A DNA stretch of 56,528 bases from a virus. Shown piece by piece: positions 42,492 to 56,208 of this stretch. The stretch's first letter is position 1. Each line of letters begins with the position of its first letter. The notes beneath the pieces were generated by a model, which saw nothing but the letters and a program-made list of their open reading frames with translations, was not told where the DNA came from and did not search any database. Location: the IMG/VR virus record IMGVR_UViG_3300020558_000266, positions 1-56,528 of that record; one strand, 5' to 3'. The position numbers were made by a program, and so were the translations under genes.

Positions 42492-43337
42492 TTAATTATT
42501 TAACCCGTTAATACCACCTAAGGTTATCGCATTTAACTGAGCATATGGTACTCCATTTGCATCTGTATATATTGGGTGAGGAGCAACTGCATCTGCAGGA
42601 CCTCCTTCAGTAACCGAACCTCCACTGAAGTTACCTAAAATTTCTATAGTATAAGCATATTGTTGATTAACACTATAACCGGTTAAAGGATACGGTGATG
42701 GAGATGGAGTAGGTGTATTTGTTGGTGTTGGCGTATTAGTTGGAGTTACAGTTGGTGTTGTAGTTTTTGTAGGAGTTATTGTAGGAGTAACTGTTGGTGT
42801 TGCAGTGCTTGTTGGTGTTATTGTTGGAGTAGAAGTTACTGTTGGAGTAACTGTTGTAGTTGGAGTAACTGTTGGAGTAGAAGTTACTGTTGGGGTTACT
42901 GTTGATGTTGGAGTTTGAGTTGGTGTTGAAGTTACCGTTGGTGTTGTTGTTACGGTTGGAGTAACGGAGCTTGTAGGAGTAACTGTTGGTGTTGTTGTTA
43001 CGGTTGGAGTAACAGTTTTAGTTGGAGTAATACTTGGAGTAACTGTTGGTGTTGTTGTTACGGTTGGAGTAACAGTATTTGTAGGTGTTGGAGTTGGAGT
43101 TGGGTTTGCAGATAAACAAGTCGAACAATCACCATAATCAATTGATAATGTTAAAACTTTGTCAACTCCTGTTGCCGGTTCCGCATTGTCAATAATATCA
43201 TAACATCCTTGAGTTGTTCCCCCTGTAAATGTTAAGTAATAATTACCAAATACCGCTGGTAATGATGAACTATCAAAGTCAACTAATATTGACGCTCCTC
43301 CCGAACAGGGGCCTATAAGATATGTAACTAATGCCAT
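42492..43337 (-). CDS. Thr/Pro-repeat virion protein
   Basis: 281 residues in three parts. A small N-terminal domain (1-76) with Cys pairs (PCSGGASI, GCYD, CSTC) looks like a beta fold. Residues 79-216 are a low-complexity array of TPTVT-type units with almost only Thr, Pro, Val and Ser. A C-terminal domain (217-281; GYSVNQQYAYTIEILGNFSG) is Gly- and Tyr-rich. Stalk-like Thr/Pro repeats are usually extended and surface-exposed, possibly glycosylated, so a head fibre or adhesin-like decoration is likely. A late-type promoter lies 14 bases upstream. Confidence 0.6.
   Translation of the reverse strand: MALVTYLIGPCSGGASILVDFDSSSLPAVFGNYYLTFTGGTTQGCYDIIDNAEPATGVDKVLTLSIDYGDCSTCLSANPTPTPTPTNTVTPTVTTTPTVTPSITPTKTVTPTVTTTPTVTPTSSVTPTVTTTPTVTSTPTQTPTSTVTPTVTSTPTVTPTTTVTPTVTSTPTITPTSTATPTVTPTITPTKTTTPTVTPTNTPTPTNTPTPSPSPYPLTGYSVNQQYAYTIEILGNFSGGSVTEGGPADAVAPHPIYTDANGVPYAQLNAITLGGINGLNN
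42690..43103. repeat. Degenerate Thr/Pro codon repeat array
   Basis: About 414 bases of imperfect short repeats (units of 15-18 bases around GTTGGAGTAACTGTT on the plus strand) encode residues 79-216 of the Thr/Pro protein. Unit lengths are multiples of three. Confidence 0.85.
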
Positions 43338-43381: not shown

Positions 43382-44107
43382 TTATTCTTGAATTGTTCTT
43401 TCAATTGATAATTCTTTATCTGTTTGTTTATTTAAAATATCGAATAGTTTTTCAATGTGTCCCGACCTTCTTAAGAACTTAAATACCAAATTTTCGTATG
43501 ACAATTCTCCATCTTTTTCTAATCCTGATTTTCGATAATCTTTGAGTTTTGACTTTAAAGACTCCAAATCTTTTTCTTCCTCAATTGCAGTGTCTATCTT
43601 CTCAATCCAAGATTTTATTTTATTTTCAAGGACTGACTTGTCGATATTACCTTTGAATTTTTTTGGATTGGTTATCCATTCATTATTCATTATTGAATAA
43701 ACACCAGAACTAACATGAGGTTCACTTTCATCCTGAGCATATAGTTCAACATCGTATCCAAAAATTTTAATATTATGTTTGTCATTAAAAACTTGTTTCT
43801 TCAGATTGAATAATTCTTTATATAATTCAGATTGTTCCTCAAATTGTTTGAAATCTATAATTAGGTGTAAATCAAAATCGGAGAACTCGGACCAATTGTA
43901 ATTTGCTAAAGACCCCGTAAGATGAATGTCATCAACAAAAATATCTTCTCCTAAAAACTCGGTAAATTTTTCCGCAATACGCATAAGAGCCTTTCTAACT
44001 TTTGGTTTCATAACCGAATTGCTAGCATCATCAGGGTTCTCCCAAATTTTTGGATTCAAAGTATCTTTGACAGAAAAACTATCAATAATTTTTTTAAAAT
44101 TACTCAT
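43382..44107 (-). CDS. Nucleotidyltransferase-fold protein
   Basis: 241 residues. Residues 62-86 carry the Pol beta-type nucleotidyltransferase signature: LTGSLANYNWSEFSDFDLHL, with G65-S66 and the metal-binding D77-x-D79. Further acidic residue FGYDVELYAQDE lies about 40 residues on, where the third Asp is expected. The C-terminal half is helical. Such small enzymes transfer NMPs to proteins, RNA or drugs; the target is unknown. A TATTTAT motif ends 5 bases before the start, predicting leaderless expression. Confidence 0.75.
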   Translation of the reverse strand: MSNFKKIIDSFSVKDTLNPKIWENPDDASNSVMKPKVRKALMRIAEKFTEFLGEDIFVDDIHLTGSLANYNWSEFSDFDLHLIIDFKQFEEQSELYKELFNLKKQVFNDKHNIKIFGYDVELYAQDESEPHVSSGVYSIMNNEWITNPKKFKGNIDKSVLENKIKSWIEKIDTAIEEEKDLESLKSKLKDYRKSGLEKDGELSYENLVFKFLRRSGHIEKLFDILNKQTDKELSIERTIQE

Positions 44108-44119: not shown

Positions 44120-44365
44120 CTAGGAAAGTTTTTTATATTGATAATTTTTTGCAATATCTGTGGTGAAAAATTTTCCTTGGGATTCCGACAATCTAAATTT
44201 AGTATAAACTTGGTGAGGAACATTATCGTATTTGTATTTCACCCCGTTATTAAATTCAATAACCAAATCCTTTGTTTCTGTATCGTATTCGGTTGACTTA
44301 ATGTTTGACGATTTAATTTGATTCTTAATTTTCGTCCCATCGATTTCTTCTTTTATTATTGCCAT
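44120..44365 (-). CDS. KTSC-domain protein
   Basis: 81 residues. The block SSNIKSTEYDTETKDLVIEF, NNGVKYKYDNVPHQVYTKF, SESQGKFFTTDI matches the KTSC domain, a small fold found in phage and bacterial proteins and sometimes fused to lysyl-tRNA synthetases; its function is uncertain. It is a stand-alone copy. A late-type promoter lies about 40 bases upstream, downstream of the UVR gene terminator. Confidence 0.8.
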   Translation of the reverse strand: MAIIKEEIDGTKIKNQIKSSNIKSTEYDTETKDLVIEFNNGVKYKYDNVPHQVYTKFRLSESQGKFFTTDIAKNYQYKKLS

Positions 44366-44444: not shown

Positions 44445-44876
44445 TTAAGATTTTAATTTTTTTAGTTGGTCTCGTAGTTCGATGGACTTTTCAAAATTTT
44501 GGTCTTCAATCGATTTTTTAAGTTCTAGTTCGATTTTTTTAATTTCATCTTGATTGGTTTCAAGTTTTTTAATCTCATCACGAAGTTTTACCGCTTCTTC
44601 AAAGTTCTCTTCCTCGATTGCGATTTGGAGTTTCTTTTTTAATGGAGTAATCCCTGAACTTTTGTTAGGTTTGTAATTACCACCTGTTCTAACAAAATTA
44701 GTGATAAGAACACCTCCATCCGGTGATTTATAGGTTTCTTTTGTCCAATTACCGAATTCATCGGTTCCTGATTCTGTTTTACCATTATTTGGTGTTACAC
44801 CAAACATAGAATCGAAATCGCCAAACATTGAGTCGAATTCTCTAAATAAATCATTAAGGTTTTTTCTGTTAAACAT
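44445..44876 (-). CDS. UVR-motif protein, McsA-like partner of Clp
   Basis: 143 residues. Two UVR motifs end the protein: KKKLQIAIEEENFEEAVKLRD (about 80-100) and ELKKSIEDQNFEKSIELRDQ (about 117-136). UVR motifs are Clp/UvrB-UvrC interaction helices; in Gram-positive bacteria the UVR protein McsA is encoded with and activates ClpC. The N-terminus (1-30) has a duplicated FDSMFG. No zinc-binding cysteines of McsA are present. The gene is divergent from the ClpC-like gene, sharing a 211-base intergenic region with putative operators. A Clp adaptor role is inferred from motif and neighbour. Confidence 0.7.
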   Translation of the reverse strand: MFNRKNLNDLFREFDSMFGDFDSMFGVTPNNGKTESGTDEFGNWTKETYKSPDGGVLITNFVRTGGNYKPNKSSGITPLKKKLQIAIEEENFEEAVKLRDEIKKLETNQDEIKKIELELKKSIEDQNFEKSIELRDQLKKLKS

Positions 44877-44884
44877 ATTTTTTC

Positions 44885-44913
44885 TTGTTTTTAAAATTTA
44901 TTGTTTATCTTTG
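44885..44913 (+). promoter_or_regulatory. Upstream host-type promoter (P1) for clpC
   Basis: TTG at 44885-44887, 18-base spacer, TATCTTTG at 44906-44913. It would give a leader of about 170 bases that crosses the operator array. Confidence 0.55.
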
Positions 44914-44944
44914 CTTCAACAATTTTTATTCCACTAACAATTAT

Positions 44945-45031
44945 ATGACATTTTTTCATAAAATTAAATAGTGAATGACACAATGTCATGACAGATTGTC
45001 ATATAAAATAAAAAACATGACAATATGTCAA
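44945..45031. promoter_or_regulatory. Array of four inverted repeats ATGACA-N3-TGTCAT (putative operators)
   Basis: Copies at 44945-44959 (second half degenerate, TTTCAT), 44975-44989 (perfect), 44988-45002 (perfect, sharing 2 bases with the last) and 45017-45031 (one mismatch). They sit between promoter P1 and the proximal promoter P2 of clpC, the fourth ending 5 bases before the P2 TTG element. This is the arrangement of a repressor-binding array. The regulator is not identified. Confidence 0.7.
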
Positions 45032-45035
45032 TATT

Positions 45036-45067
45036 TTGGATAGGAATGAAATTTGTTATTATATTTG
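45036..45067 (+). promoter_or_regulatory. Proximal host-type promoter (P2) for clpC
   Basis: TTG at 45036-45038, 21-base spacer, TATATTTG at 45060-45067, 20 bases before the ATG at 45088. Confidence 0.7.
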
Positions 45068-45087
45068 CATTATAAAATTATAAAATT

Positions 45088-47100
45088 ATGAACGATTTAA
45101 TGGACGACGACGACAAAATGATGAGTAAAAAAACAAAATCATCAGATTCCAGTACACCTGTATTGGACAATTTCAGTAGAGATTTGAATAAACTTGCTGA
45201 AGCCGGTAAACTTGACCCTGTAGTTGGTCGTGAACGAGAAATTTTGAGAATTGCTCAGATTTTATCCCGTAGAAAGAAAAATAACCCAATTATACTCGGT
45301 GAACCGGGTTGTGGTAAGACCGCACTTGTTGAAGGTTTGGCAATCAAAATAGTGAAGGGCGAATGTCCTAGAAATTTAATGGATAAAAGAATTGTCAATC
45401 TTGACCTTACATCTGTTGTTGCTGGTACAAAATATCGTGGACAATTTGAAGAAAGAATGAAAGTAATTCTTGAAGAACTTCAATCAAATCCAAACATCAT
45501 TGTGTTTATCGATGAGATTCACACATTGGTTGGTTCAGGAAATTCTTCAGGTTCTATGGATGGTTCTAATATCTTTAAACCCGCTCTTGCTCGTGGAGAG
45601 GTTCAATGTATCGGAGCGACCACTTTAGATGAATTCCGTAAGAATATTGAAAAGGACGGAGCCTTGGAGCGTAGATTCCAAAAAGTAGTTGTTGAGCCGT
45701 CATCGGTTGCTGAAACAATTCAAATTTTAAAAAATGTTCGTGGCAAATACGAAGAATATCACAAAGTAAATTATAGTGATGAGGTAATTGAAACTTGTGT
45801 TAAGTTGGCGGACAGATATATTACGGACAGAGAGTTTCCGGATAAAGCATTTGATATTTTGGATGAAGTTGGAGCAAGAATGCAAACCGATTTGAAAGTT
45901 CCGGAAATAATTGAGGAACTTAAGAAGAAAGCGGCGGAAATAAAAGAACAAAAAATTGATGTAGTTAAAAGACAAAATTACGAACAAGCAGCAGAACTTC
46001 GTGATAAAGAGAAAAAATTGTTAATCAAACTTGATAATGAGAAATTGAGGTTTGAACAACAAATGGCTAAAGAAAAACAAATCATATTGTTAGAACATGT
46101 TTATGATGTTGTTTCAAATATGACTAAAATCCCGGTTAATAAGATGAGTGTTGATGATACTAAAGCATTAATAGATTTGGATAAAAACTTGGTAGGTAAA
46201 GTTATTGGTCAAGACGACGCAGTTATCAAGATTGCGAAATCAATCAAAAGAAATCGTTTAGGTATTAAAGACCCGAATAAACCAATTGGTTCATTTGTGT
46301 TCTTGGGTTCTACGGGTGTTGGTAAAACTTATTTGGCAAAACAATTGGCTAAAGAAATGTTTGGCTCCGAAGATTCACTTATTCGTGTTGATATGTCTGA
46401 ATATCAGGAGAAACATACGGTATCTAAATTGGTTGGAGCTCCTCCGGGATATGTTGGTTATGAAGAAGGTGGAATGTTGACTGAAAAGGTTAAAAACAAA
46501 CCATACTCTGTTATTTTGTTTGATGAGGTTGAAAAAGCCCATAAAGATGTATTCACCATTTTACTTCAAATCTTGGACGATGGTCATGTTACCGATAGTT
46601 TGGGTCGTAAAATCAACTTCAAGAATACTTTGATTATTTTAACATCAAACTTGGGAGTTAAAAAATTACAAGATTTTGGAAATGGCATTGGGTTTTCATC
46701 TAATTCCTATAGTAACGAAGAAGCTAAAAAACAAATGTTGATGAAAGAGATGAAGAATTTCTTCTCTCCTGAGTTCTTAAATCGTTTGGATGATACGATT
46801 GTATTCAACTCACTATCTCAAGAAGATATAAAGAAGATTACAGACATTGAATTGAAAAGATTGGTGACTCGTCTTACGGATATGAAATACTCAATCAGTT
46901 ATGATGAAACTTTGGTTGATTACTTGGCAAAAATCGGATTCGATGAATTGTATGGAGCTCGACCATTAAAAAGAGCAATTCAAGATAAAGTCGAGGACTT
47001 GTTATCTGAGGAGGTTCTAACCGGTAAATTGGTTGAGGGTAAAACCTATGTTATCAAAGTTGTTGATGACAATGTCGTTATTCAAAAGAAAGGACGATAA
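45088..47100 (+). CDS. clpC: ClpC-like AAA+ unfoldase lacking the N-domain
   Basis: 670 residues against about 810 for ClpC: the double N-terminal repeat domain is replaced by about 25 acidic/polar residues. D1: Walker A GEPGCGKT (71-78), pore GTKYRGQFEER, Walker B IIVFIDEIH (137-145). The middle domain is short and has a UVR-like helix, VVKRQNYEQAAELRDKEKK (292-310), the ClpC hallmark rather than the long ClpB one. D2: Walker A GSTGVGKT (407-414), pore GYVG (454-457), Walker B VILFDEVEKAH. A GIGF loop (533-536) matches the ClpP-docking tripeptide. It probably unfolds proteins into host ClpP. It has two promoters and an operator array. Confidence 0.9.
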   Translation: MNDLMDDDDKMMSKKTKSSDSSTPVLDNFSRDLNKLAEAGKLDPVVGREREILRIAQILSRRKKNNPIILGEPGCGKTALVEGLAIKIVKGECPRNLMDKRIVNLDLTSVVAGTKYRGQFEERMKVILEELQSNPNIIVFIDEIHTLVGSGNSSGSMDGSNIFKPALARGEVQCIGATTLDEFRKNIEKDGALERRFQKVVVEPSSVAETIQILKNVRGKYEEYHKVNYSDEVIETCVKLADRYITDREFPDKAFDILDEVGARMQTDLKVPEIIEELKKKAAEIKEQKIDVVKRQNYEQAAELRDKEKKLLIKLDNEKLRFEQQMAKEKQIILLEHVYDVVSNMTKIPVNKMSVDDTKALIDLDKNLVGKVIGQDDAVIKIAKSIKRNRLGIKDPNKPIGSFVFLGSTGVGKTYLAKQLAKEMFGSEDSLIRVDMSEYQEKHTVSKLVGAPPGYVGYEEGGMLTEKVKNKPYSVILFDEVEKAHKDVFTILLQILDDGHVTDSLGRKINFKNTLIILTSNLGVKKLQDFGNGIGFSSNSYSNEEAKKQMLMKEMKNFFSPEFLNRLDDTIVFNSLSQEDIKKITDIELKRLVTRLTDMKYSISYDETLVDYLAKIGFDELYGARPLKRAIQDKVEDLLSEEVLTGKLVEGKTYVIKVVDDNVVIQKKGR

Positions 47101-47105
47101 TTAAG

Positions 47106-47134
47106 AAGAGGTCTTTATGACCTCTTTTTTTTTT
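47106..47134 (+). terminator. Terminator after clpC
   Basis: GAGGTC-TTTAT-GACCTC stem followed by T10, six bases after the clpC stop. Confidence 0.9.
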
Positions 47135-47139
47135 ATTCA

Positions 47140-47146
47140 TATTTAT
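47140..47146 (+). promoter_or_regulatory. Candidate late promoter TATTTAT, 4 bases from ATG
   Basis: CATATTTATTGTTATG directly after the clpC terminator and before the zinc-ribbon gene at 47151. Confidence 0.5.
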
Positions 47147-47150
47147 TGTT

Positions 47151-47327
47151 ATGAAAGAATTAATTAGAAAAATTTTAAGAGAAACCATCAAAAACAACAA
47201 AGTTATTTGTGATGGATGTGGATGGTCTTGGGATTTATCCGATGGTGGTGATGACCCGTATATTTGTCATAAATGTGGTCATGATAATGAGCAAAAAAAA
47301 TCGGATGATTTCTCATCCGACTTATAA
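47151..47327 (+). CDS. Small zinc-ribbon protein with packaging-type N-terminus
   Basis: 58 residues. MKELIRKILRETIKNN is an amphipathic helix with an L-R-E site, like the shared peptides of other candidate head proteins. It is followed by CDGCGWSWDLSDGGDDPY and CHKCGHDN, two Cys pairs that should bind one zinc ion. The same ribbon occurs at the end of many phage proteins (recalled). The last 35 bases form a terminator for the opposite strand. It is preceded by a late-type motif 4 bases from the ATG. Confidence 0.75.
   Translation: MKELIRKILRETIKNNKVICDGCGWSWDLSDGGDDPYICHKCGHDNEQKKSDDFSSDL
47293..47320 (-). terminator. Terminator for the M20 peptidase, embedded in an opposite-strand gene
   Basis: On the minus strand TCGGATGA-GAAA-TCATCCGA (8-bp stem, GAAA loop) followed by T8. 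It begins 8 bases beyond the peptidase stop and lies within the zinc-ribbon coding sequence. Confidence 0.85.
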
Positions 47328-48170
47328 TTAAAACACCGACCTACTTCTCCAATCGTAGTTAACTGACTTTTTATAGTGTAATTTATTACCCAAATTTTCA
47401 ATCATTTTTCTACCCATGTCAATACCATTGAATACATCTTCAACTACAACATATTCATTTTTGGTATGGTAGTTGTAATACCCGATTGAAATATTAATAC
47501 AAGAAAAGTCAAACTTACCTCTCAAAGCGTAAACGTCGGTATAAGGATGAACCATATACTCCATATCATTTTGATTCATACCTTCAGTCAAAACTTTATC
47601 ACAAGTTTCAAAAAATTCGGTTTCTCTATCAAATAAAACTTGTCCGAAACATTTTTCAGTAATCATCCAGTTTTCCGGAGCGTCGAATTGGATTCCATAA
47701 CCAACATTTGAAAAGAAATCTTCACTTGCTTTTAATGAACCATGACAACCGGTTTCTTCAGATACGAAGAATGCCGCTTTCAAGTAAGGTAATTCTTGTA
47801 ACAAGGTTAAACATGCAAACACACCACATTTATCATCACCACCAATACCTGTTGGTTTTCCTTGGTCATTATATGCCTTATACGACAACTTTATTTCGCG
47901 TTGAGCGTTTGGTAACATTTCTTCAGAGATGTTAATCGTATCAATGTTATGAACGGTATCCGTATGTGAGATAACACAAGGGAAATAAAAATCTTCAGGT
48001 AACTCTTGGGATTCTTGTTTTGTTGCATAAACATTGTTGAATTCATCCACAAAATGTGAAATATTGTTTTCGGTTAACCAGTTAACCAAAAATTCAACCA
48101 TTTTTTCTTCTTGATATGTCTTTGTTGGGACACTCAACACTTCTCTAAGTAATTTTGTATTTTTTTCCAT
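47328..48170 (-). CDS. M20/M42-type zinc metallopeptidase
   Basis: 280 residues, shorter than typical two-domain M20 enzymes (about 370-410), so the dimerisation insert is probably missing. Metal-site motifs: ISHTDTVH (67-74, His69 and Asp71), GIGGDDKCG (108-116, bridging Asp), SEETGCHGS (137-145, catalytic Glu), FDAPENW with a metal Asp, and a terminal YYNYHTKNE His. It should remove residues from short peptides in the cytoplasm. No signal peptide. It lies between the ClpC and tmRNA genes and has its own host-type promoter 4 bases from the ATG. Confidence 0.85.
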   Translation of the reverse strand: MEKNTKLLREVLSVPTKTYQEEKMVEFLVNWLTENNISHFVDEFNNVYATKQESQELPEDFYFPCVISHTDTVHNIDTINISEEMLPNAQREIKLSYKAYNDQGKPTGIGGDDKCGVFACLTLLQELPYLKAAFFVSEETGCHGSLKASEDFFSNVGYGIQFDAPENWMITEKCFGQVLFDRETEFFETCDKVLTEGMNQNDMEYMVHPYTDVYALRGKFDFSCINISIGYYNYHTKNEYVVVEDVFNGIDMGRKMIENLGNKLHYKKSVNYDWRSRSVF

Positions 48171-48174
48171 AGCA

Positions 48175-48182
48175 CAAATATA
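48175..48182 (-). promoter_or_regulatory. Host-type -7 element TATATTTG, 4 bases from ATG
   Basis: TATATTTGTGCTATG before the M20 gene at 48170. With transcription starting about 4 bases after the element, the mRNA would be leaderless. Confidence 0.6.
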
Positions 48183-48217
48183 ATAAAAATTATTTTAAAT
48201 GTTATGAAAAAAATGTT

Positions 48218-49312
48218 TTAAGTGTCAAATCTATCAAATAATTCCGGTTGGTATAATAAATTGTTAAAATTTTCTTCACTTAAACTAAGTTTTCGAGTTC
48301 CTTTAGTAGGGTGCATTAAAAGAACGATTACTCGATTATCAACTCTATCAAATCCCTCAATTCTAAATTGAACTTTTGGTTCTTTAGGTAACTTATACCA
48401 TATATCCGATTTAAATTTTTTACCAATACGCTGTCTAAATTGAATAAATTCATTTATTTTAAGCCTTTCATTATCAAAATCACTTTCGATAGAATCATAA
48501 ATGTCATCTAATTTATTTTCAACATAGTTGTTAAACCCTTTATCATCCCAATTTTCATCATTGTGATACTCATACATAACATCTGCCCATCCACCTATCC
48601 TTGATGAGCCATTAGCTTCCATAATTTCTTTAACTAAACTTTTGATATCCGAGTTTTGAGCATTTAATCTTATTGCCCACATATATAAATTCGCCGCGGT
48701 TGTTGAAATTTCATCATATTTACGATAAACCTCAAAGTCAATTTTTTCCATAAAATTTTCCAAGTCCTTATTAACCTCATCTTGAGCAGTCTTCATCATC
48801 TCATCATTTTTCTTATATGTCCAATCTTGAATAATGTCTTCAATTTCACCCTCAAACAATTCAAGAATAGTTTTACTTAATAAAATCCTGTATTTTTCAT
48901 CATTTAAATTAAATTCTTTCTCAGGTACGATTATTTCTGCAATTTCCTTTAATTTTTCAATATTCTCAGGATTAAAGTAATTTAAAATTCCATATCCTTC
49001 AAGAAAATCATCCAAAACTTGACCATAATCATAAAAATCATAATCTGAATATGGTGAATTCATCATTCCTTCAAACCATATATCATCATCACTTAATTCC
49101 AACACATTTTCAAAAAAATCCGTATCATTTTTATACTCAATTATAATGTCACTCATACCCAAAGGATTTCTAATCCTAACACCAATATCATCATAAAGGT
49201 CTTCTAACTCTCTAGCATTAATCTTACCTCGAACAAAATCTTTCAAATTTTTAATAAGGTTGTCAGTATCAGGCAACTCTTCGTTATTCTCATTGTCTTC
49301 GTATAACCTCAC
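48218..49312 (-). CDS. Hypothetical protein
   Basis: 364 residues from a GTG start (MRLYEDNENNEELPDTDN). Acidic, Asp/Tyr/Asn-rich and helical, with LENFMEKIDFEVYRKYDEIS in the middle and a small beta-like C-terminus (KVQFRIEGFDRVDNRVIVLL). No membrane segment, no cysteines and no known motif. A TATTTAT motif lies 15 bases upstream, back-to-back with the tmRNA promoter. Function unknown. Confidence 0.6.
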   Translation of the reverse strand: MRLYEDNENNEELPDTDNLIKNLKDFVRGKINARELEDLYDDIGVRIRNPLGMSDIIIEYKNDTDFFENVLELSDDDIWFEGMMNSPYSDYDFYDYGQVLDDFLEGYGILNYFNPENIEKLKEIAEIIVPEKEFNLNDEKYRILLSKTILELFEGEIEDIIQDWTYKKNDEMMKTAQDEVNKDLENFMEKIDFEVYRKYDEISTTAANLYMWAIRLNAQNSDIKSLVKEIMEANGSSRIGGWADVMYEYHNDENWDDKGFNNYVENKLDDIYDSIESDFDNERLKINEFIQFRQRIGKKFKSDIWYKLPKEPKVQFRIEGFDRVDNRVIVLLMHPTKGTRKLSLSEENFNNLLYQPELFDRFDT

Positions 49313-49327
49313 AATTGTTTTTTTATA

Positions 49328-49334
49328 ATAAATA
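49328..49334 (-). promoter_or_regulatory. Candidate late promoter TATTTAT
   Basis: GAGTATTTATTATAAAA, 15 bases before the GTG at 49312. Confidence 0.4.
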
Positions 49335-49344
49335 CTCTTTTGAT

Positions 49345-49374
49345 TTGGAAATTAAATATTTATTTGTATCTTTG
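49345..49374 (+). promoter_or_regulatory. Host-type promoter for the tmRNA
   Basis: TTG at 49345-49347, 19-base spacer, TATCTTTG at 49367-49374, 46 bases before the mature tmRNA 5' end. The 20 bases from 49367 are identical to the promoter at 28277-28258. Confidence 0.75.
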
Positions 49375-49420
49375 TATTCTAAATCGAAAGAAACGATTTT
49401 AATTGTTCTTTGAAAAATAT

Positions 49421-49803
49421 GGGGGTAAAATGGAATTGACTGGCATTGTTGGGTGTAGGTGGCACGTCGAAGCTGAATTAACTTCGTTATCAACTGATTC
49501 AAAACAACAGACGGCAACGTTCTAAACAAAATGGCTCTAGTAGGTCTTGTTAAACAAGATGAGCTTGTAGCAGTAGCCTAGTCTCTACTACATTCGGGTC
49601 GGGAGGACATTAACCCAGGAACAGGAGTCCTTAATGGGTGGAAAAACGATTAAACCTTAAATTGAGTCGTCCATTGGTTGTTAGGTTTACGATGGTGAAG
49701 AACAAACCGACTATTTCGGAATCTTAGAAAAGATTGTCCTAAACGTGTAGTCACTTATGGTCAAAATGGACAACACGAGGTTTCGAAACCTCTACCTCCA
49801 CCA
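49421..49803 (+). ncRNA. ssrA: tmRNA (transfer-messenger RNA), one-piece, 383 nt
   Basis: tmRNA rescues stalled ribosomes by acting first as an alanine tRNA and then as an mRNA for a degradation tag. The ends pair as a 7-bp acceptor stem, GGGGGTA (49421-49427) with TACCTCC (49793-49799), including the G3-U70 pair that alanyl-tRNA synthetase requires. Discriminator A and encoded CCA follow. The T arm GAGGTTTCGAAACCTC is canonical, and TGGAATTGACTGGCA matches the conserved 5' region. An open tag frame ends ELVAVA then TAG (49561-49581) inside a helix, as in other tmRNAs. Length, promoter and terminator all fit. The tag appears long (about 22 residues if it starts at GGC 49513) and ends VAVA, not LAA. 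Confidence 0.93.
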
Positions 49804-49808
49804 AATAA

Positions 49809-49835
49809 AGGGTCTCTTATGAGACCTTTTTTTTT
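49809..49835 (+). terminator. tmRNA terminator
   Basis: GGTCTC-TTAT-GAGACC stem with T9, 7 bases after the CCA end. Confidence 0.9.
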
Positions 49836-51457: not shown

Positions 51458-52024
51458 ATGAAAGTTATGTTTTTAGACCATGATGGTGTAATTTGTTTAT
51501 CTAATAATTGGGGTAGTCGGTTTAAAAAACAGGCTAAATGGGGTGGTAAAACCTCATCAATGAGTATGCAAGACATACCATTACAATACCGATTTGATGA
51601 CTTTGACACTAAATCAATTAAAATCTTGAATGAAATGTTAATTGAAACCGACGCAGAAATCGTGGTTTCCTCCGATTGGAAACGTTGGGCGACTCTTGAA
51701 GAAATGGGGGAACACTATGAATCAAAAGGTATCATTAAAAAACCTATTGCTCTTACTCCAAACTTAGGTCAATGTACTTGGTATGATAATTGGGCTTGGT
51801 CAAGAGATTGGGATTTGGAAATGACTCGTGTTATTGAAATCAAACAATACTTACACGACCATCCCGAAATCACTCATTGGGTTTCAATTGATGACCTTGA
51901 CATGGGTAAAAATGGGGAATCTTGGAAAGATTGGGGGTTAGATAACTTTGTTCTTACACCGAAAAGTAATCAGGGTATTAAACAATCAGGAGTTAAAGAA
52001 AAAATTTTAAAATTATTAAATTAA
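51458..52024 (+). CDS. HAD-superfamily hydrolase
   Basis: 188 residues. MKVMFLDHDGVICL holds the catalytic D7-x-D9; VVSSDWKRW (about 66-74) is motif II (Ser/Thr) and VSIDDLDMG (about 145-153) is motif IV with acidic residues. A cap insert rich in Trp (WYDNWAWSRDWD) lies between. The pattern resembles the HAD domains found in RNA-repair-like proteins and phage phosphatases. It would dephosphorylate a nucleotide, polynucleotide end or small metabolite. Own promoter, single gene. Confidence 0.8.
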   Translation: MKVMFLDHDGVICLSNNWGSRFKKQAKWGGKTSSMSMQDIPLQYRFDDFDTKSIKILNEMLIETDAEIVVSSDWKRWATLEEMGEHYESKGIIKKPIALTPNLGQCTWYDNWAWSRDWDLEMTRVIEIKQYLHDHPEITHWVSIDDLDMGKNGESWKDWGLDNFVLTPKSNQGIKQSGVKEKILKLLN

Positions 52025-56091: not shown

Positions 56092-56208
56092 AAGTCGGAA
56101 CAGGATTCGAACCTGTAATTAAGAGAGGTCACTTACCGCTGATGGGACATATACCATCACCCTCTGTATTGCCATACCGCGTCGCGTTACCAGTTCCGCC
56201 ACCCAACT
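56092..56208 (-). other. tRNA-like gene with enlarged anticodon region (117 nt)
   Basis: Acceptor AGTTGGG/TCCGACT, Leu-like D region (TGGCGGAACTGGTAACGCG) and canonical T arm ACAGG-TTCGAAT-CCTGT are intact. Between them are about 70 bases with two extra hairpins (TGATGG/CCATCA with an 8-base loop; GTAT/ATAC) enclosed by AGAGG/CCTCT. No standard 5+7+5 anticodon arm can be drawn, so no anticodon is assigned. It may carry a small insertion or be decayed. Confidence 0.5.

Follow-up and report, generated by a model that had tools for sequence, protein, structure and literature searches.

The virus record IMGVR_UViG_3300020558_000266 of IMG/VR, whose full 56,528 bases were analysed here (the window), carries a transfer-messenger RNA (tmRNA) gene with a tag peptide of a non-host type and, upstream of it, genes for a ClpC-derived unfoldase, an M20 family metallopeptidase and a protein without assigned function (orf48218), together with a UVR protein gene divergent to that of ClpC. 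We read this set, at about even odds (a probability near 0.5), as a module for trans-translation and proteolysis that the phage itself encodes and whose degron has been rewritten. The combination is real, conserved and, within the open-access literature searched, undescribed; an initial annotation of this DNA had singled it out as a candidate for an undescribed system, and the observation as a whole was confirmed and proved stronger than had been stated, while the interpretation offered with it is borne out in part. Phage tmRNAs have been known for years and have, to our knowledge, no demonstrated purpose. In this widespread lineage the tag has been rewritten and then retained, in a gene that keeps its place next to those for an unfoldase and a peptidase and not far from a ClpP gene, which makes that purpose directly testable.

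Conservation of the block and its products

Viral relatives of the window ClpC, of some degree, were found on at least 599 stretches, from which the best 80 loci were taken (near-identical contigs enter as separate records throughout, and the counts thus include close relatives). A tmRNA is present in 63 of these 80 loci, always on the ClpC strand, at a distance of 4.0-7.6 kb downstream from where the ClpC match begins. It is there in each of the 48 loci with at least 8 kb of downstream sequence, and the 17 loci without it end within 7.6 kb. The M20 gene occurs in 75/80 loci; in the other five the sequence runs out within 2.1 kb of the ClpC start. The reverse search used two degenerate tag-DNA patterns and not ClpC, and found 122 stretches (21 of them from contigs that the ClpC and UVR sets also contain), 116 of which contain a tmRNA. 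Where tag-selected tmRNA loci have at least 2 kb upstream, M20 is found in 81/81 and orf48218 in 78/81; where they have at least 6.5 kb, ClpC is found in 34/35 and the UVR gene in 12/35. Co-occurrence in relatives had been set beforehand as a test of the prediction, and the set is conserved whether approached from ClpC (48/48) or from the tag (34/35). The same arrangement is kept at ClpC identities down to ~63% (lower where a contig end cuts the match) and orf48218 identities of ~24%, while genes further downstream turn up less often (orf49861 in 20/80 and HAD51458 in 16/80 loci, partly owing to contig ends). In the ClpC-selected relatives tmRNAs were located with an nhmmer model built from 31 tmRNAs, among which minus-strand members were wrongly oriented; the better-scoring strand of each match was taken and then checked by tag and acceptor stem, and for the tag-selected set the model was rebuilt from re-oriented sequences.

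The window tmRNA (Table 1) scores well above the Rfam gathering cut-off for RF00023 (47 bits) and has an acceptor stem with 7/7 pairs including G3:U70, bearing out the earlier claim of a complete tmRNA; the RF00023 alignment fits poorly in the middle, and ARAGORN missed the gene in the window. A G-U pair at acceptor position 3 is present in 64/67 full phage tmRNAs, the exceptions being two fits with a shifted start (L017 and L019) and one stem with only 5/7 pairs (L035). The GGC resume codon at 49513 lies at an offset of 92 from the tmRNA 5' end, compared with GGC offsets of 92-97 in host tmRNAs. In three relatives the tmRNA gene is interrupted towards its 3' end, in the T-arm part, by a group I intron (RF00028, 72-98 bits); bacterial tmRNAs are known to have introns in the T-loop (PMC11915505; this and all further statements about cited articles refer to excerpts of them).

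Promoter-like motifs of the form TTTG-N17-22-TAnnTTTG, after the published Bacteroidota sigma-ABfr-type promoter consensus (PMC7366714), number 12 in the window; 100 simulated sequences gave a mean of 5.5 and up to 13. A slightly looser form lies within 120 nt upstream of 55/69 related tmRNAs, as against 182/9518 control windows. Before the M20 gene (50/77 relatives) and before ClpC (19/85) the motif is less regular than before the tmRNA, and its presence in so few relatives makes it weak for the ClpC gene.

The window ClpC matches the profiles AAA_2 (236 bits), ClpB_D2-small (83 bits) and phrog_4871 (799 bits) and is composed of two AAA+ modules and an M-domain that carries a UVR motif. At the ClpP-docking position of ClpC and ClpA, where loops of the GIGF/IGF type dock on ClpP, it has GIGF, and an [ILV]GF loop is found in 80/80 full phage ClpC proteins. 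The D1 pore loop is host-like in 85/85 phage ClpCs; the D2 pore loop reads GAPPGYVG in 56/85 and GSPPGYVG in 24/85, the other five being unmatched by the search expression. A Clp_N domain was not found in the window ClpC, nor in any of 31 phage records, as against 2/2 host genomes, and the frame upstream of the ClpC start in the window is interrupted by stops; the protein is therefore named ClpC-derived and N-domain-less. The ClpC-like unfoldase with a ClpP-docking loop that had been predicted is thus what the domain matches and the GIGF loop describe, and the N-domain is indeed absent. In a tree the 80 phage ClpCs (80/80) form one clade with support of 0.79. A tie of the phage lineage to Bacteroidota is supported; the best 80 cellular relatives of the window ClpC share 57-62% identity with it and, going by record titles, come mainly from Bacteroidota, with many Flavobacteriia among them.

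No ClpP gene lies in the window itself. A 19.5-kb contig (G076) matching the right end of the window with 99.0% identity over 5,445 bases encodes ClpP (PF00574, 189 bits) in the same direction as ClpC, about 10 kb past the window (~66.5 kb by arithmetic). In a survey that drew on 50 of 87 distinct contigs, picked for long sequence and UVR matches, ClpP was found in 21/51 records, always on the ClpC strand and 13-31 kb downstream, and in 20/25 records having at least 24 kb of downstream room; the five without it may rely on host ClpP. The Ser-His-Asp triad of the phage ClpP is intact, its SMG, HQ and RD positions, which we take to hold the catalytic residues, aligning with Bacteroidota ClpP in an alignment that also took in two huge-phage ClpPs. 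When 11 host genomes are compared with the phage ClpP, the best ClpP from each shows 41-51% identity to it, and the ClpP of the huge phage LR745206 shows 66%. SmpB, which was not found in the window, is encoded in 4/51 records, and three of these have it no more than 0.9 kb past the tmRNA. A role of ClpP as a capsid maturation protease was considered and rejected as the likeliest one: the window has a separate T4-type S77 prohead protease, which makes such a role unnecessary, and the phage ClpP is full-length and Bacteroidota-like, which disfavours it further.

The M20 match to PF01546 is barely above the cut-off of 24.6, and the metal-site residues (His/Asp/Glu/Asp/His at positions that we presume to be the ligands) are conserved in 70/70 sequences; together with the PHROG match this upholds the peptidase first proposed for the island. 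Its neighbour orf48218 is part of the conserved block and adds to the four features first noted. The protein has no Pfam or PHROG match, and a confident AlphaFold2 model (predicted local distance difference test score, pLDDT, 88.6) found no Foldseek match at E<=0.001 in PDB or BFVD. Since tmRNA, M20 and orf48218 stand together even where the UVR gene is missing, orf48218 is a second adaptor candidate. It ends in a C-terminal motif, YQPELF, that in our view resembles a clamp-binding motif.

The UVR protein had been described as divergently encoded and McsA-like. It is divergent and has two UVR motifs. McsA has zinc-binding CxxC motifs besides UVR, and the phage protein has zero cysteines, so the likeness to McsA is true for the UVR motif only. 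Homologues occur in 37/80 ClpC-selected loci, adjacent and divergent to ClpC where present, and in 4 of the 43 other loci the upstream sequence is too short to judge. The AlphaFold2 model (pLDDT 62), helical in its C-terminal half, is too weak for a structure search. The UVR protein was rejected as a general reader of the tag, since a protein encoded in only 37/80 loci cannot be an obligatory one.

The tag peptide of the phage tmRNAs

The window tmRNA encodes the tag GNVLNKMALVGLVKQDELVAVA and that of one relative GNTFAKMAALGLTREAVVVAA. Phage tags are about 20-22 residues long and have an internal K-[M/L]-x3-G-L core in 67/67 full tmRNAs; the expression used to find tags requires G-L, yet it excluded no full tmRNA (67/67, of which 66 differ as DNA). 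Among 49 distinct tag peptides (the first residue of a few is uncertain) G-L is invariant, K stands at -5 in 47/49 and none (0/49) ends in ALAA or AMAA, some phage tags ending instead in VTI, VEA, VKA, VGA or VTVS. By comparison, of 25 Bacteroidota tmRNAs sampled three were not read, and the 22/22 readable tags are 9-mers such as GENNYALAA that end in ALAA or AMAA. Conservation is internal in the phage tag and terminal in the host tag, as would fit recognition by a different reader. In the tag frame the proportion of synonymous differences (pS) is 0.57 and that of non-synonymous differences (pN) 0.31 (ratio 0.54), compared with pS/pN of 0.36/0.27 (ratio 0.74) and 0.31/0.37 (ratio 1.19) in the two shifted frames, and third codon positions vary most and second positions least. 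This pattern, from a statistic that ignores phylogeny, is a modest sign of selection on the tag peptide. The tag first called unusual accordingly belongs to a non-host type and, from the host comparison, the 67 tmRNAs and the pS/pN values, looks selected as a peptide. As a natural degron the tag core was not found in the window proteins (frames of at least 50 residues).

A possible pathway and its alternatives

During infection, ribosomes would stall and be rescued by the phage tmRNA with host SmpB (in a few relatives with phage SmpB), and a phage-specific tag of about 22 residues would be added in place of the host GENNYALAA. With the changed tag, the chains would be drawn away from the host's ClpXP-type recognition of an ALAA C-terminus and towards the phage N-domain-less ClpC and phage ClpP, after which the M20 peptidase would trim the released peptides to amino acids. 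Loss of the N-domain would cut the unfoldase off from host adaptors, and the double-UVR protein, where present, would activate or load ClpC via the UVR-containing M-domain. The anatomy of the set and its conservation are observed directly; beyond them, we infer that the tag is read by phage ClpCP, that the UVR protein acts as an adaptor that binds the M-domain, and that M20 and ClpCP act in series. A stricter version, an orthogonal viral channel in which stalled chains bypass host ClpXP and go only to N-domain-less ClpC and ClpP via a tag-specific adaptor (orf48218 or the UVR protein), with recycling by M20, is put forward tentatively, the odds being somewhat against it.

Several observations weigh against such a module. 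A single phage lineage supplies most of the data, and the synteny may therefore be in part shared descent, which does explain part of the gene order. The UVR gene is found in under half of the loci, ClpP was not found in 5/25 records with at least 24 kb of room, and M20-type peptidases are present in 357 phage records. The codon test is modest, one shifted frame likewise having pS above pN, and two relatives whose ClpCs are 94% (L003) and 92% (L004) identical to that of the window have different tag subtypes. Elsewhere the parts occur separately. The cultivated Cellulophaga phages phi38:1 (tmRNA at L482:6321-6682, NC_021796.1 26803-27164; 87.6 bits and not shown in the annotation of that stretch) and Calle_1 (L481:13321-13682, MT732432.1; the annotated tmRNA is ~50 bases off the Rfam match) encode a 30-residue tag, GNNTNAVNAQIEANMEAVNAILNLEVAVGV, and an M20 peptidase ~1.3 kb downstream, and gave no ClpC match (ClpP was not searched for there); with a long non-ALAA tag and no ClpC match, they indicate that a changed tag needs no ClpC. 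The huge phages LR756502, LR745206, LR756508 and LR756501 have ClpC, but no tmRNA over the cut-off nearby, and only one of the four has a tmRNA anywhere (whole records, stricter filters); in LR756501 a 344-nt tmRNA match below the cut-off lies far from ClpC.

These cases bear most directly on the best surviving alternative, that the tmRNA serves plain rescue of ribosomes from mRNAs cut in host shut-off while ClpC, ClpP and M20 are housekeeping neighbours by descent: phi38:1 and Calle_1 gave no ClpC match and still have a tmRNA, LR745206 and LR756502 have ClpC and ClpP with no tmRNA over the cut-off, and trans-translation genes have already been described in huge phages (PMC7162821). We nevertheless regard it as unlikely, though not negligible, given that the synteny is tight in both directions while genes further downstream turn up less often, and that the tag core is found in all 67 full tmRNAs with a coding-like pattern. 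Less probable again would be a stealth tag, by which ribosomes are rescued and the tagged chains are spared host ClpXP, with ClpC and ClpP kept for other purposes. The lack of an ALAA or AMAA end in 49 distinct tags, the VTI, VEA, VKA, VGA and VTVS ends of some, and the AVGV end of the phi38:1 tag in a phage without a ClpC match would all suit it; an inert tag would need no conserved K-[M/L]-x3-G-L core, yet that core stands in all 67 tmRNAs.

The adjacent and divergent UVR gene in 37/80 loci, and the precedent of SPO1 Gp53 acting on host ClpCP (PMC6873191), could instead point to ClpC-ClpP as a tag-independent host-takeover protease that the UVR protein aims at chosen host proteins; ClpC and tmRNA stay together where the UVR gene is missing, and we consider this very improbable. 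Finally, docking of the phage unfoldase on host ClpP, the partner named in the initial annotation, accords with the missing ClpP in the window and in five relatives with ample room and with the IGF loop kept in 80/80 full phage ClpCs, yet ranks as the least credible reading because a near-identical contig and 21/51 records encode ClpP, so that the phage's own ClpP is the likelier protease.

Neighbouring features and comparison with known systems

Table 1. Features of the phage block; positions refer to the window unless a relative (L) is named
Feature	Position	Strand	Basis
UVR protein, 143 aa, two UVR motifs, divergent to ClpC; candidate ClpC adaptor	44445..44876	-	PF02151, 56 bits, 2 stretches
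Bacteroidota-type promoter-like motif 5' of ClpC gene	45035..45067	+	motif scan
N-domain-less ClpC-type AAA+ unfoldase (D1, M-domain with UVR motif, D2, IGF loop), 670 aa	45088..47100	+	
M20 family metallopeptidase, 280 aa	47328..48170	-	PF01546, 24.8 bits; phrog_4191, 119 bits
orf48218, 364 aa, without assigned function; between M20 gene and tmRNA, divergent to tmRNA	48218..49312	-	
Bacteroidota-type promoter-like motif 5' of tmRNA	49344..49374	+	motif scan
tmRNA gene (ssrA), one-piece, with CCA	49421..49803	+	RF00023, 73.2 bits, E 1.3e-26
Tag reading frame GNVLNKMALVGLVKQDELVAVA-stop, resume codon GGC	49513..49581	+	read from sequence
Terminator-like hairpin ggtctc-ttat-gagacc, then nine T, directly 3' of tmRNA	49811..49835	+	read by eye, no tool score
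Group I introns in phage tmRNAs	L030:12871-13087, L041:15130-15346, L071:15113-15340		RF00028

We treat the window as part of a T4-type myophage genome, given its portal, major head protein, S77 prohead protease and T4-type terminase. Flavobacterium phage immuto has the T4-type portal in common with it, but no tmRNA and no ClpC were found there, and in a search of 50,697 phage records for cultivated relatives the UVR protein, the tmRNA and orf48218 were all without a match. Upstream of ClpC lie a KTSC-domain gene (44120-44365; a neighbour in 76/80 loci) and a nucleotidyltransferase-like gene (43382-44107; 74/80), and before them a gene (42492-43337) whose product has a long Thr/Pro-rich repeat stretch. 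On the 3' side of the tmRNA, 51458-52024 encodes a HAD domain of the 'Swiss Army Knife' RNA-repair type (66.8 bits), and a 117-nt tRNA match of 34.8 bits at 56092-56208 on the minus strand contains a long insert, possibly an intron or a long variable arm, and received no call from ARAGORN.

Phage tmRNAs have been listed for mycobacteriophages (Bxz1 and others) and Bacillus phage G (PMC4131195) and counted in 402 of 18,146 phages, and it has already been suggested that they tag host proteins so that these are recycled (cf. Melnitz; PMC9004378). Huge phages encode tmRNA and SmpB (PMC7162821), one tmRNA was noted in Calle (PMC8776804), and clpP and clpC are listed among virome genes (PMC11054999). 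The described phage tmRNAs are virus-encoded, as here; in the excerpts of these articles neither a conserved rewritten tag nor linkage to an unfoldase, ClpP or peptidase is described for them, and among the open-access matches listed (most subscription journals lie outside them) none reports this tag or a phage tmRNA with ClpC or ClpP linked to it. The huge phage LR756504.1 has a tmRNA (280507-280863) with a long tag ending in MAVAA and, ~11 kb away, ClpP (291834-292493), its ClpC (534524-536422), of N-domain-less size, lying far from both. Cellulophaga phi38:1 and Calle_1 (Pervagoviridae) resemble the window lineage in the long non-ALAA tag and the M20 gene and differ in family and in that no ClpC was found in them. 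Their arrangement hints at a tmRNA-peptidase link across phage families, although a distance of 1.3 kb between tmRNA and M20 in a 72-kb genome could be chance; being cultivated, these two phages offer a laboratory entry to a related tmRNA-peptidase arrangement.

The phage set has in common with bacterial trans-translation through ClpXP or ClpAP the one-piece tmRNA, the G3:U70 alanine-type stem, a similar resume offset and small or hydrophobic tag ends, and departs from it in being carried by a virus, in the tag, which is ~20-22 residues long, has a conserved internal core and does not end in ALAA, and in the neighbouring ClpC without an N-domain. With ClpC-ClpP run by adaptors (MecA, McsA/McsB) it shares the D1-M-D2 order, the UVR motif in the M-domain, the IGF/VGF loop and the ClpP partner; in contrast, the phage ClpC has no N-terminal domain, and the nearby UVR protein is cysteine-free and not McsA. 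Gp53 of phage SPO1, an adaptor-like modulator, acts on host ClpCP (PMC6873191), unlike the phage-encoded ClpC described here. Comparable in design is Mesoplasma florum, where a long tmRNA tag is read by the organism's own Lon protease (PMC9097571). Both tags are long and non-standard, and Mesoplasma has an orthogonal dedicated protease; its system is cellular and uses Lon rather than ClpCP, and its tag sequence is, by eye, unrelated to the phage tag. If the module we propose is real, it would stand as a viral equivalent of the tag and Lon protease of Mesoplasma, and an orthogonal degron system could be drawn from it.

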